This document shows, piece after piece, positions 307-6,833 of a stretch of 6,880 bases of DNA (the stretch's first letter is position 1; each line of letters starts with the position of its first letter). A program made the position numbers and the translations under genes. Origin of the DNA: Candidatus Peregrinibacteria bacterium (GTDB lineage: Bacteria > Patescibacteria > Gracilibacteria > UM-FILTER-43-11); NCBI GenBank assembly GCA_030620215.1, contig JAUXFE010000035.1:1-6880 (forward strand), written 5' to 3'. The notes beneath the pieces are model-generated. The model was not told where the DNA came from. It did not search any database and was given only the letters and a program-made list of their open reading frames with translations.

Positions 307-1656
307 TTAATCGAGGTTAAGTTCTATTTCTCCCTTTTGTAATTCTTCGAGATGAATTTCACCGCCTTTGTCTTCCTGTTTTTTTTCAGGCTTGGCTTCT
401 TTGACACTTTCGGGAGACTTAGTGTCTGTGGCAGGCTTAGTGTCTTTGACTTGTTCTCTTTGGGCCTGAGCCACACTTGGTTGTGAGCTCGTGTCCGAAC
501 GGTCAGAAACTATGATATTGCCTGTGATAGGTTTTTCATCTTTTGGGATAGGTTTTTGTTGTTCTTTTTGTATTAGGTTAACCGGTTTCTTTTTTTGAGT
601 AGAGTCGATTTGAGTTTCTGGGCGTACCGGTTGAGCGAATTTAGGTTTCTTTTTTCTGCGCCTTCTTTTTCTTGTGTCTTTTTCTGCTTCGCGTGGAGTC
701 GGTTGCTTATCCAATGGCTTATCCAATGGCTTATCCGGTTGCTTATTCAATGGCTTATCCGGCTGCTTATCCGATGGCTTATCCAATTGCTTATCCAATG
801 GCTTATTCGGTTGCTTATCCGTTTGCTTATCCAATGGCTTATTCGGTTGCTTATCCGTTTGCTTATCCGGTTGCTTATACAGTGGCTTTTCTGGTTTTGG
901 TGTGACAGGCTGTTTTGGAGGTGTGATCTCTGTTTTAACAGCTGATTCTTTTGGTTTTGTTTCTGTTATTGTCGGAACAGGCGGTACTGCTTTTGATTCC
1001 TCCTTTTTTATTAATTCGATTTGCTCTTTTACTTCTTTCAATGCTTTTACCTCAGTCATAGGAAGTTCAGAAAGTAGTTTTAATTTTCTATTATAAGCTG
1101 ATTTGTCTTTTGTTGTTCGTGCCCATATATTTGCGCCTGTGCCTTCTTTATGGCCGAAAAACGCTTCAATCATTAAATTATCATCTTCTGCCTGATCAAT
1201 GCCCTCATGTTTAATTTCTTCAACATGTTCAAATCCACCCGAATCAAGTACCCGGCTTAAATCTTCTAAATTAACATCGTTTCTTCCTTTTTCTTCTATT
1301 ACAGCTTTTTCTGTTGCAGATTTTTTTTCACTTAAATCCGGTGCCACAATAGCTGAAATACCACGATGATCCCACATACGTTTTTTTGGTTTTATCGCAA
1401 ATTCCAATGCGAGAAGTACGAATTTAGGAAGCGGAATATTATTTATTTTGATCATCGCTGCGGCAATTGCGATCAATGCCGGTAATGCGATTATTATATA
1501 TTCTAATATGTTTAATTCGTATAATTTCGATGTTATCGCAAAAAGCACATAACTTATTCCCACGCCGATTGCGACTATGATCAGTTGCCGGAGACTGAAT
1601 GGTCCGACTATTTTGTCTGCGATGCCTACTTCTTGTGGGATTTTGTATTGTAACAT
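307..1656 (-). CDS. PrgI family membrane protein with long Lys/Pro/Gln repeat tail
   Basis: This encodes 449 aa from ATG 1656. A TTG 51 nt upstream is in frame, but it lies in an inverted-repeat element and would add 17 residues before the usual PrgI opening MLQYKIPQEVG. Residues 1-110 form the PrgI domain: a short cytoplasmic start, helix 1 (about 24-42), helix 2 (about 50-69), then a basic segment ending KPKKRMWDHRG. PrgI proteins are small membrane partners of VirB4-type ATPases in Gram-positive and CPR type IV secretion-like loci; this one is several times the usual length of little over 100 aa. The rest looks disordered: an acidic stretch (about 120-180), a Pro/Lys linker, 16 tetrapeptides of type [DN]K[QP]x (256-319), a basic cluster RKRRRRKKKPK (329-339) and an acidic end. 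Signal-less topology suggests an inner-membrane anchor with a long tail; the tail's function is unknown. Confidence 0.85.
   Translation of the reverse strand: MLQYKIPQEVGIADKIVGPFSLRQLIIVAIGVGISYVLFAITSKLYELNILEYIIIALPALIAIAAAMIKINNIPLPKFVLLALEFAIKPKKRMWDHRGISAIVAPDLSEKKSATEKAVIEEKGRNDVNLEDLSRVLDSGGFEHVEEIKHEGIDQAEDDNLMIEAFFGHKEGTGANIWARTTKDKSAYNRKLKLLSELPMTEVKALKEVKEQIELIKKEESKAVPPVPTITETKPKESAVKTEITPPKQPVTPKPEKPLYKQPDKQTDKQPNKPLDKQTDKQPNKPLDKQLDKPSDKQPDKPLNKQPDKPLDKPLDKQPTPREAEKDTRKRRRRKKKPKFAQPVRPETQIDSTQKKKPVNLIQKEQQKPIPKDEKPITGNIIVSDRSDTSSQPSVAQAQREQVKDTKPATDTKSPESVKEAKPEKKQEDKGGEIHLEELQKGEIELNLD
700..891 (-). repeat. 12-bp minisatellite inside prgI (16 tetrapeptide units)
   Basis: Sixteen consecutive 12-bp units, read on the minus strand as GATAAGCCATTG or GATAAGCAACCG variants, encode EKPL, YKQP, then mostly DKQP, DKPL, NKPL and DKQT. 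The array keeps frame throughout. Within it a 36-bp block is perfectly duplicated in tandem (795-830 and 831-866), giving DKQTDKQPNKPL twice (residues 264-287). Perfect identity in that block suggests recent expansion by slippage or unequal exchange. Confidence 0.95.
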
Positions 1657-4780: not shown

Positions 4781-4859
4781 TAAGGATTAAGGAGTAAGGA
4801 TTAAGTAGTCTTAGGCTTAGGACTCAGCTTATTCCTTAAGACTTAGGACTTAAGACTCA
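4781..4859. repeat. Short interspersed direct repeats between the phosphatase gene and efp
   Basis: TAAGGATTAAG occurs at 4781-4791 and 4795-4805 (14-bp period). CTTAGGACT occurs at 4816-4824 and 4842-4850, and GACTCAG also occurs twice. The low-complexity block carries the phosphatase stop codon (4852-4850) and runs into its last codons (Ser-Glu-Ser), so the gene's extreme 3' end lies in the repeat. Confidence 0.7.
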
Positions 4860-5632
4860 GAAATGATTTTAAGTATTTCTTCATGTATTCCACTACCATT
4901 ACTCAGTAAAATATTCTTATCTCCCGGTTTCCACTCCTCTCCGGCAAAATTTGTAATACGTCCGCCGGCTTCTTTAATCAAAAGCACGCCTGAGACCAAA
5001 TCCCAGATCGGCAGACCGTCCAGCAAATAGGCTTCACATAGCCCTTCTGCCACTAGTCCCATTTCGGCTCCGGCGGATTTTAATCTATCCGCGCCGTAAG
5101 CAGCCAATTTAAGTTTAACTGCATATTTTTCAGCGTTTTTAATTAATTCTTCTTTGGCCTTATGACAGTAAAGAACTGATGATTTTAAAAGTTCATCGGT
5201 GTCCGATACATGAATCTGTTTCTCATTTACAAACGCTCCTCCATCCTTTGTCGCGGAGTACATTTTATCAATAGAAGGTACATAAATCACTGATACGACA
5301 GGTTTATTATCCTGCATTAAACAGATAGTTGTAGCGTAAAAGGGGACTTGAATGGTGTAATTCCTTGTTCCGTCCAATGGGTCGATTACCCAAACTAATT
5401 CCTGATCTGGATTTTCAGACGTACCCTCTTCGCCGATTATTCCGTGATCTGGATATTTTTCTTTAATTGCTTCCACATACATCCGTTCTACTTCTTTATC
5501 CAGTTCTGTAACTACGTCATGAGTACCTTTATTGCTGATTTGGGATTCATCTAATTTACCAAAATTATCCAAAAGGATTTTACTGCCCTTTTTGGCTAAA
5601 GATTGAGCAAATTGTAGGTATTCGTCGAGCAT
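4850..5632 (-). CDS. Inositol monophosphatase family phosphatase
   Basis: From ATG 5632 the protein is 260 aa, typical of the family. An in-frame TTG at 5677 would add 15 residues, but it lies upstream of the predicted -10, so the ATG is preferred. The Mg-dependent phosphatase motifs are all present: GEEG (67-70; metal-binding Glu68), WVIDPLDGTRNY (81-92; metal ligands Asp84 and Asp87, with Gly88-Thr89 holding phosphate) and LPIWDLVSGVLLIKEAGG (207-224; Asp211). The family removes phosphate from inositol phosphates, sugar or histidinol phosphates, or 3'-phosphoadenosine nucleotides; the motifs alone do not fix the substrate. SuhB-type members can also act in rRNA transcription, but nothing here shows that. 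It is soluble, with no signal peptide. It has its own promoter, and efp follows 119 bp downstream with another. Confidence 0.93.
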   Translation of the reverse strand: MLDEYLQFAQSLAKKGSKILLDNFGKLDESQISNKGTHDVVTELDKEVERMYVEAIKEKYPDHGIIGEEGTSENPDQELVWVIDPLDGTRNYTIQVPFYATTICLMQDNKPVVSVIYVPSIDKMYSATKDGGAFVNEKQIHVSDTDELLKSSVLYCHKAKEELIKNAEKYAVKLKLAAYGADRLKSAGAEMGLVAEGLCEAYLLDGLPIWDLVSGVLLIKEAGGRITNFAGEEWKPGDKNILLSNGSGIHEEILKIISES

Positions 5633-5656
5633 GTTGTTTGTTTTTAAGTCTATATG

Positions 5657-5684
5657 AGTATAACAAAAAAGATTCAAATGTCAT
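5657..5684 (-). promoter_or_regulatory. Promoter of the IMPase-family gene
   Basis: On the minus strand ATGACA (5684-5679, five of six consensus bases), a 16-nt spacer and TATACT (5662-5657) with TGT before it form an extended -10 promoter. The -10 ends 24 nt before the ATG at 5632. The predicted short leader ends AAAACAAACAAC and has no Shine-Dalgarno. Confidence 0.7.
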
Positions 5685-5694
5685 TATTTCAAAC

Positions 5695-5723
5695 TTGAAA
5701 ACATCTCCCAACTCGTATATCTT
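5695..5723 (+). promoter_or_regulatory. Possible tRNA promoter
   Basis: TTGAAA (5695-5700), a 17-nt spacer and TATCTT (5718-5723) lie upstream of the tRNA and would give a precursor with a 5' leader of about 27 nt. The -10 is weak (four of six). It is divergent from the phosphatase promoter immediately to the left. Confidence 0.35.
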
Positions 5724-5756
5724 TATTACGATCTTTTCTTATATCTTTAAAAACAT

Positions 5757-5832
5757 GGGCCTGTAGCTCAGTGGTTAGAGCAGTCGGCTCATAACCGATT
5801 GGTCGTAAGTTCGATTCTTACCAGGCCCACCA
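5757..5832 (+). tRNA. tRNA with anticodon CAU, probably tRNA-Ile2 (lysidine-modified)
   Basis: A full cloverleaf is present: acceptor GGGCCTG (5757-5763) pairs with CAGGCCC (5822-5828); D arm GCTC/GAGC (5766-5781); anticodon stem GTCGG/CCGAT (5783-5799) around loop CTCATAA with anticodon CAT (5790-5792); variable loop TGGTC; T arm GTAAG-TTCGATT-CTTAC (5805-5821); discriminator A5829; encoded CCA (5830-5832). A paired G1-C72 and no GGG/CCC anticodon-stem run argue against initiator tRNA. C4-G69 and C5-G68, used by TilS in E. coli tRNA-Ile2, plus the AGTGGTTAGAGC D arm and TTGGTCG segment, resemble E. coli ileX more than elongator tRNA-Met. So it probably reads AUA after lysidine modification; elongator Met is the alternative. 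Confidence 0.96.
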
Positions 5833-5879
5833 TTAATCGATTGGTCGTCCCGCCAAGGCGGGACCAGGCCCACCATTAA
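5793..5879 (+). repeat. Partial tandem duplication of the tRNA 3' half with the T arm replaced by a palindrome
   Basis: Unit 1 (5793-5836) is the tRNA from the anticodon loop to past CCA; unit 2 (5835-5879) repeats its flanks. CGATTGGTCGT is identical at 5796-5806 and 5838-5848, and CCAGGCCCACCATTAA is identical at 5821-5836 and 5864-5879. Between them unit 1 has the T arm (14 nt), while unit 2 has CCCGCCAAGGCGGGA (15 nt). The second copy keeps the acceptor strand and CCA but no D arm or anticodon, so it cannot be a tRNA by itself. Its end supplies the stop codon of the peptidase gene (TTA at 5876-5878 on the plus strand). Confidence 0.9.
5847..5864. terminator. GC-rich hairpin between convergent tRNA and peptidase gene, possible bidirectional terminator
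   Basis: GTCCCGCC (5847-5854) and GGCGGGAC (5857-5864) form a perfect 8-bp palindrome around AA in an AT-rich region, placed between two genes that converge on it. It has no T-tract on either side, so it is not a canonical intrinsic terminator. It may instead stabilise RNA 3' ends or be a mobile palindromic repeat. Confidence 0.35.
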
Positions 5880-6781
5880 ACCGGTTTCGTTATTTTAGTT
5901 ACCGGCTGTACTTTGCGTCTTTCCTTTTTAGACATTTTTGCTAATTCCTCACCTGGCACATATTTTAATATTATGTTACTTTCACTGAATTTTTGTTTTA
6001 ATGCCCAATACCCCATTGTTTTTGCTTCATATTTGCTTTTGTTTTTCCAACCCAAAAAAATAACACTGTGATTACCATGATCGTCTGCTTTGTTTTTGTT
6101 ATTTACGAATATATGGTCTCCGGGTTCGAGTTTGTCTAATACATTATCTGGTGCACAATTTTTTCCACAGTTTTTCTCTTTTCCATATGTTTTTACTGTA
6201 TTAAAAATAGCCGGGCCTCTTGTAAAACCTGCAAGTTTATAAACTTTAGCTACAAAATCCCAGCAATTTTTTCTTACCAACCCTCTTTTTTCTGTGAGAT
6301 GTGCTACTTTTACAATCTTTTCGGCTTTACTAAGCGATTTGTCTTTTCTGATTTTTTCGAAATCAGAAGGTATTTCTATCGCTTCTTCCTCCTCTCTTTT
6401 TATTCTCTCATCAAGATCGGTTACTTTTTTTCTTTCAACTTCTTCTTTTAATTCCTCTTTTGTTTTTTTTGGTTTTTCAATTTCTTCTTTTAGCTCGGCT
6501 CTTGTTTTTTTGCTCTTTGGTTTTTTGGGCATTTTATCTTTTATGTCCAATGCTGTCGCCAAAGCAAAGGCACCAACACATGCTCCAAATACGCCCTGTT
6601 TTAACTTTGCATTTTCTCCTTTCGTGAAAAAGTCTCCAATCCATTTAAACATTTTTTTAAAGCCTTCAGTAGTTCTTTGCATAGTCAATTCAAGCCCTTT
6701 TAGAGCTTTTTTTGTCCCCACTTCAGGTGTAACTTGTGTTAATTGTGATGTAACCTCTGGTTTTCTGTAGAATTGGTTCAT
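5876..6781 (-). CDS. Membrane-anchored NlpC/P60-like cysteine peptidase or amidase
   Basis: From ATG 6781 the protein is 301 aa. A GTG at 6814 is in frame but lies inside the predicted extended -10, so it is rejected. Residues 1-60 have no clear domain; 61-80 (GVFGACVGAFALATALDI) is a single hydrophobic segment, probably a membrane anchor. Residues 81-137 are highly charged, with a doubled motif KKTRAELKEEIEK / KKTKEELKEEVER, likely a helical stalk. Residues 165-275 resemble the NlpC/P60 fold: NCWDFVAKVYKLAG with candidate nucleophile Cys173, LEPGDHIFV (218-226), and HGNHSVIFLGW with candidate catalytic His238. Cys205 and Cys209 (CGKNC) are extra. Such enzymes cut peptidoglycan peptides or act as amidases. 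A Lys/Arg-rich tail ends the protein. The family call rests on motif order; the third catalytic residue was not identified, and a CHAP-type enzyme is the alternative. Confidence 0.68.
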   Translation of the reverse strand: MNQFYRKPEVTSQLTQVTPEVGTKKALKGLELTMQRTTEGFKKMFKWIGDFFTKGENAKLKQGVFGACVGAFALATALDIKDKMPKKPKSKKTRAELKEEIEKPKKTKEELKEEVERKKVTDLDERIKREEEEAIEIPSDFEKIRKDKSLSKAEKIVKVAHLTEKRGLVRKNCWDFVAKVYKLAGFTRGPAIFNTVKTYGKEKNCGKNCAPDNVLDKLEPGDHIFVNNKNKADDHGNHSVIFLGWKNKSKYEAKTMGYWALKQKFSESNIILKYVPGEELAKMSKKERRKVQPVTKITKPV

Positions 6782-6804
6782 AAAAAATTCAATATTATCT
6801 ATAT

Positions 6805-6833
6805 ATTTTAGCACAAATTGTGGGTTTTATCAA
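6805..6833 (-). promoter_or_regulatory. Promoter of the peptidase gene
   Basis: On the minus strand TTGATA (6833-6828, five of six), a 17-nt spacer and TAAAAT (6810-6805, five of six) with TGC just before the -10 make the best promoter in the window. The -10 ends 23 nt before the ATG at 6781. This fixes the start: the alternative GTG (6814-6812) overlaps the extended -10 and would not be in the mRNA. Confidence 0.78.

Follow-up and report, generated by a model that had tools for sequence, protein, structure and literature searches.

The window, by which we mean the whole 6,880-nt stretch of DNA analysed, carries on its minus strand genes for a PrgI-like protein, an S-layer-homology protein, elongation factor P and an inositol-monophosphatase-family protein, as judged from a Pfam scan of six window proteins, among whose matches there was no integrase. 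The phosphatase is 71% identical to a Peregrinibacteria homologue (P0010; L001), with nine matches closer, and its relatives thus fit the Patescibacteria origin assumed in the initial annotation. On the plus strand lies an intact tRNA-Met(CAT) gene with an encoded CCA (5757-5832; Rfam RF00005, 76 bits), the only tRNA called in the window by ARAGORN and Rfam, and beyond it a convergent ORF (5876-6814) that has no Pfam match. No terminator-like site, defined as a GC hairpin with an immediate T run, is present within 5600-6000. Elsewhere in the window, the PrgI-like gene contains tandem 12-nt repeats (699-890, minus strand) encoding a stretch rich in Lys-Pro-Leu/Gln-Pro-Asp, and the interval between the PrgI-like and S-layer genes (1676-1826) is densely filled with short direct and inverted GC words (TACGCGTGG, GGGCCTGC and similar).

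Directly behind the tRNA, on the same strand, positions 5838-5879 are a partial, degenerate copy of its 3' half, in which the T arm alone has been exchanged for a GTCCCGCCAAGGCGGGAC hairpin. After a TTAAT spacer (5833-5837) that separates it from the CCA, the copy opens with CGATTGGTCG (5838-5847), representing the 3' side of the anticodon stem and the variable region and identical to 5796-5805 (10/10), and its right part (5865-5875) is an exact copy of the last 11 nt of the tRNA, that is, the acceptor 3' strand, the discriminator base and CCA. The TTAA that follows (5876-5879) is also found after the intact tRNA, and overlaps the stop codon of the convergent ORF (5876-5878). Between the two parts, the GC hairpin GTCCCGCC-AA-GGCGGGAC (5847-5864), whose core recurs in L085, L116, L203 and other loci, occupies the place of the T arm, which in the intact tRNA reads GTAAG-TTCGATT-CTTAC (5805-5821); the lost segment is gtaagttcgattcttac, tRNA positions 49-65. 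The duplicated segment runs from the 3' side of the anticodon stem through 4 nt beyond the CCA: ACCAGGCCCACCATTAA at 5820-5836 is repeated at 5863-5879 (17/17 identical, repeat family D17), and CAGGCCCACCATTAA at 5865-5879 equals 5822-5836. The replacing hairpin has 8 bp, and since its outermost G-C is the outer pair of the T arm itself, the exchange spans the arm from stem base to stem base. Allowing up to 3 mismatches, we found a single occurrence of the palindrome in the window, where 0.01 would be expected. These repeats bear out the initial annotation in its central claim, a duplicated tRNA 3' half with a GC palindrome exactly where the T arm should be, and the unit length of 44-45 nt given there differs trivially from the 42-43 nt that we measured between the two units. 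Lacking the 5' half and the T loop, the copy cannot form a complete cloverleaf, and it is probably a fragment with no function of its own.

Of 116 relatives searched at the DNA level, using the tRNA together with its copy as the query, 110 gave a match, and two of them (G011 and G013) gave one spanning both tRNA-Met and copy; a third long match, in G044, was a tRNA-Arg with two units. Among the 34 loci from relatives that we compared, L085 and L086 have a like unit behind the same tRNA-Met, with different spacers and an identical or similar hairpin. The G013 hairpin is TCCCGCTTAGCGGGA, and the acceptor stem of its tRNA, GGGCCAG/CTGGCCC, is matched by a copy bearing CTGGCCC where that of the window bears CAGGCCC; the acceptor strand copied at L085 contains a single mismatch. 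The tRNA and its copy are divergent from the phosphatase gene in the window (4850-5832), whereas in G011 (L117) they lie directly upstream of it and co-directional with it. In G006 (L087) the phosphatase, the tRNA and the convergent ORF are arranged as in the window, with a plain tRNA end and the unit absent, and in G010 (L091) the tRNA stands ahead of the phosphatase, also without a unit. Because loci with and without it coexist, the unit represents a gain or a loss at an otherwise conserved place. G013 has, in addition, a unit behind a second 3' half of tRNA-Met (L204, G013:C11); ARAGORN calls no tRNA there, and the parent may itself be broken or interrupted.

The search of related Patescibacteria proposed in the initial annotation thus recovered like units at the same tRNA-Met, and it did so at other tRNAs as well, each unit resembling its own neighbour: two at Arg (L115), one at another Met (L116), three in tandem at both Gly (L197) and Asp (L200), and further units at Pro, Thr and Ile (L199, L201, L203). 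The more distant genome G328 has exact acceptor copies at Val and Gly, while two Ala copies and one Thr copy match less well, and a few partial copies elsewhere show no obvious hairpin (e.g. L089, L092). Patterns combining palindrome and CCA match in 34 of the 116 relatives and in 32 of 379 genomes of the phylum, tallies that should not be read as counts of the phenomenon, since many matches are something other than tRNA copies and the loci were inspected in part.

The unit in the window belongs to a class. We collected 228 tRNA genes from the window and from Patescibacteria loci, partly chosen for holding palindromes, and searched for any GC hairpin with a stem of at least 6 that has sequence of its own parent tRNA on both sides. 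This gave 52 hairpins, distributed over 38 parents and 16 tRNA types, six of them being further tandem units of an array already represented; with permuted parents, leaving out pairs of identical tRNA name and anticodon, the same search gave 1, 3, 4, 3 and 2. Allowing 2 nt at both ends, and with arm limits that are approximate for tRNAs without CCA, 39 of the 52 replace one arm: the T arm in 22 cases, the anticodon arm in 12 and the D arm in five. The T-arm swap had been recognised in the initial annotation, and the other two kinds had escaped it. Most of the arm segments that were lost measure 15 or 17 nt, corresponding to the arm minus or plus its outer pair. The remaining 13 hairpins comprise eight near-clean insertions, with 0-2 nt lost, and five others. 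The families involved are the TCCCGC..GCGGGA, TCCGCC..GGCGGA and TCCCGA..TCGGGA types and CCTGCCTGCCGGCAGGCAGG, the last of which was inserted in 8/8 cases. Seven of eight CCTGCC-type cases insert without loss or duplication of the target and one loses 2 nt, in which they differ from the arm-replacing types.

Less biased counts come from G016 (39 ARAGORN calls; 41 Rfam matches) and G046 (46 and 46), in which nearly all tRNAs are covered, and where 10/39 and 11/46 tRNAs, respectively, have a swapped copy. No swapped copy was found among 37 tRNAs of two palindrome-poor relatives (G049 and G004) or among 70 of three non-Patescibacteria, these control genomes being represented by 30 loci per search (the best-scoring tRNA places). 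The control flanks contain about four times fewer hairpins (0.43-0.45 per kb against 1.6-1.9), so that the comparison of genomes cannot by itself separate fewer hairpins from fewer swaps, a distinction that the permuted-parent control does make. A third control set (13 tRNAs, loci L002-L080) gave three hits at two tRNAs, all in L043, which is probably the G046 genome itself. Exact 3' copies downstream of the tRNA were still present in the controls, at 1/37 in G049 and G004 and 2/57 in the non-Patescibacteria, against 12/38 in G016 and 6/46 in G046. At L084, L106, L125 and L143, behind different tRNAs, another module directly follows the CCA, a long hairpin with arms bounded by CCCC/GGGG, and in several loci this is followed by a CCAGAAAATAC-like word.

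The geometry of the copies was analysed by comparing each of the 228 tRNAs with its own 500-nt flanks, with called tRNAs masked. Same-strand copies of the tRNA were found downstream of 31 and upstream of 19, compared to 0 and 2 on the opposite strand; in terms of hits, 39 and 21 were seen where 2.6 and 4.4 were expected for random partners. Downstream copies mostly contain the 3' part of the tRNA and upstream copies mostly the 5' part, the pattern that a duplication would leave if one of its breakpoints fell inside the gene. An exact copy of the last 11 nt occurs downstream of 27/186 tRNAs, upstream of one, and on the opposite strand of one and one (permuted tails: mean 3.7, largest 7), although these counts may include real tRNA ends, because neighbouring tRNAs were unmasked, and the loci were partly chosen for palindromes. 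The spacer between tRNA and copy is 5 nt in the window and ranges from 0 to about 200 nt elsewhere. The copies of two tRNA-Lys genes without CCA (L168, L169) also lack CCA, and certain copies have leader or trailer sequence in common with their parents (L107, L152, L237, L302; L167, L222), two features that favour copying at the DNA level. The homology ends at or near the CCA in 31/39 pairs (at most 9 of the next 16 bases equal in an ungapped comparison, with 3 rows partly masked), and six of the other eight are inner units of tandem arrays. Since plain tandem duplication does not predict an end near the CCA, breakpoints near tRNA ends, a faster decay of the flanks or conversion would be needed in addition.

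The palindromes themselves are found in other places too. The pattern CCCGC-N2-6-GCGGG has 39 occurrences in G016 and its reversed counterpart 3, and 17 of the 39 lie within tRNA copies or a tRNA arm, although in some cases a single array is probably represented at two contig ends. One palindrome is situated just past the 3' end of 16S rRNA (L262, 744-757), another inside a match to 6S RNA (L272, 702-715; 50.9 bits, cut-off 46.4), and the other 20 include terminator-like ones. In tRNA-Ser genes the variable arm is formed by the palindrome (L203, L215). The tRNA-Ser and 6S RNA sites indicate that some of the palindromes occupy positions that require a hairpin but leave its sequence free; the palindrome also fills tolerant arms of apparently working RNAs. 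The view of the initial annotation that the palindrome belongs to a repeat carrying tRNA ends holds, in that it is one of a set of repeats associated with tRNA genes; the random scatter that was considered there as a counter-indication does not describe G016, whereas G011, with 8 occurrences against 11 for the reversed control pattern, shows no excess at all, which means that the excess is not general. A viral link was also considered and rejected: of 90 viral stretches with palindrome and ACCA, one had a tRNA within 500 nt, and its acceptor was mismatched.

On balance, we consider it probable, by a modest measure, that the units arose when DNA was duplicated locally, one breakpoint falling inside the tRNA gene, and dispersed GC palindromes replaced hairpins of the dispensable copy one for one. 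This retains the suggestion of a tandem duplication followed by acquisition of a palindrome made in the initial annotation, in the form of a partial tandem duplication with the GC palindrome at the T-arm place. A breakpoint inside the gene would leave an intact, promoter-linked tRNA and a dispensable fragment, and the partial copies would be tolerated because the intact gene survives. While the DNA is single-stranded, as on the lagging strand during replication, hairpins could form from tRNA arms and from dispersed palindromes alike, and one could then be substituted for another by template switching or by processing at the hairpin bases; of these, we prefer template switching between hairpin bases, a mechanism that is unproven. 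The precision of the swaps suggests a process acting on folded hairpins, for which no exchange enzyme or intermediate was seen in the genomes analysed. One could speculate further that in some Patescibacteria a DNA process guided by structure acts repeatedly, recognising hairpins in their folded state and swapping them whole at their base, and that duplicated tRNA segments record it in their arms, as working RNAs do in their tolerant arms, a broader proposal to which we give somewhat less than even credence.

An unlikely, though not negligible, alternative is that the GC palindromes are transposable themselves, by REP/RAYT-like or other single-strand transposition, and inserted into non-essential fragments that were already duplicated. 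Their dispersal in G016 and the insertion of the CCTGCCTGCCGGCAGGCAGG family with loss of 0-2 nt would fit such a scenario, as would the matches to a Y1 (TnpA_REP) transposase in 6 of the 11 genomes searched, including G046, G013 and G011. However, the same search gave no Y1 match in G016, G023 and G044, all of which carry units, and this counts against mobilisation by a RAYT; moreover, the TCC..GGA families replace whole arms, in 39 of the other 44 hairpins. TGA occurs in frame 7 and 5 times, respectively, in two of the Y1 matches (G108:C13:29120-29491 and G049:C3:83483-83827), as if it encoded an amino acid in these genomes.

The units could also be functional RNA, a reading that we regard as rather improbable, in which the acceptor strand of the copy competes for the 5' strand of the tRNA and thereby creates an alternative precursor that tunes processing, or acts as a decoy. 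The copied acceptor strand does follow its parent, as seen in G013 and in the window, and the predicted folding energies of the window are nearly equal for the alternative pairing (-51.9 kcal/mol) and the tRNA's own pairing (-50.4 kcal/mol), the former being slightly better here and in several other loci. Across loci, however, the fold preference ranges from +5.5 to -7.4 kcal/mol, and in L085, L174 and two L200 comparisons it favours the tRNA's own pairing, by 1.8 to 5.5 kcal/mol. The acceptor mismatch in L085, the absence of the unit from the syntenic G006 locus, and the anticodon- and D-arm-swapped and 5' copies, which fit no single design, likewise argue against a function. The initial annotation proposed that the second acceptor strand can pair with the tRNA 5' end as well as the first; the resulting tRNA-like fold is thus energetically possible, while as a function it is unsupported, and given its inconsistency between loci we did not retain it as a regulatory alternative.

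The partial copies are reminiscent of those left by integrative elements (PMC9897764; PMC3119063), which in archaea and bacteria leave one complete and one partial tRNA gene (attR) (PMC9897764), and the unit could be the scar of such an element, attached at the tRNA 3' end and later deleted to its borders. The published intervals span kilobases, about 9-23 kb in PMC9897764 and 5-52 kb in the examples of PMC3119063, in contrast to 0 to about 200 nt here, with nothing element-like between tRNA and copy in the loci inspected. Copies occur on both sides of the gene, including 5' copies upstream, and a foreign hairpin stands exactly at the place of an arm. The abortive integration considered in the initial annotation is disfavoured by these short spacers and leaves the hairpin unexplained, and we judge it very improbable. 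Slimmer still is the case for reverse-transcribed copies of mature or precursor tRNA, made by a polymerase jumping between hairpins: this would account for copies that often end at CCA and for arms exchanged as structural units, but the copies adjoin their parent in the same orientation, some share its flanks, and those of the CCA-less tRNA-Lys genes disfavour a retrocopy of mature tRNA. Some arrays lie at contig ends (G016 C17, C31, C57), yet an assembly artefact is hardly conceivable when several genomes, assembled independently of one another, have like units at many tRNAs, each resembling its own parent.

Among known systems, the E. coli tyrT repeats (rtT RNA, RF00391) follow a tRNA gene as units that each carry the tRNA-Tyr 3' end with CCA, sometimes in tandem. 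The Patescibacteria units seem to resemble them in this respect (one in the window; two at L115; three at L197 and L200), but differ in being about 40-50 nt long, in occurring at many tRNAs and in having swapped arms; the window has no Rfam match to the rtT family. Short dispersed palindromes of bacteria include REP elements with RAYT transposases, Rickettsia palindromic elements and other MITEs. The hairpins described here are similarly short and dispersed, but, at 14-22 nt, they replace whole tRNA arms, and some of their carriers have no Y1 transposase match. In organelles, proliferating GC palindromes are represented by the PstI palindromes of Neurospora, the GC clusters of yeast and double-hairpin elements. 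These, too, are spreading GC hairpins, some around RNA genes, whereas here we are dealing with bacterial genomes and with arm-for-arm substitution inside duplicated tRNA segments. Short dispersed palindromes of bacterial genomes (PMC10969869) and the proliferating small inverted repeats of placozoan mitochondria (PMC7813641) have been described, and we found no description of arm-for-arm exchange in tandem tRNA copies in the literature searched, which consisted mostly of papers outside subscription. Partial tRNA copies and proliferating palindromes are both known, and it is their structural register that is the surprising part.

Arm swaps with near base precision suggest an action on the folded shape of DNA or RNA, and the tRNA neighbourhoods of these bacteria may thus be a natural record of hairpin-directed rearrangement. 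If this is true, genomes could change by trading secondary-structure elements as units instead of sequences, and the arm-swapped copies would allow the spread of short palindromes to be studied event by event. They would also explain odd tRNA-like fragments in annotations, and they are a warning for tRNA predictors: a T-arm-swapped tRNA-Thr copy in G016 (C33:29818-29891) scores 43.7 bits in Rfam, above the cut-off of 29 bits. Two further sequences came to our attention, a nearly full-length tRNA-Asp-like sequence with its T arm replaced by TCCCGCCAAGGCGGGA (L339, G363:C14), and a 139-nt tRNA match (38.2 bits) at G049:C8:46982-47120, which is probably a tRNA with an intron or insertion.
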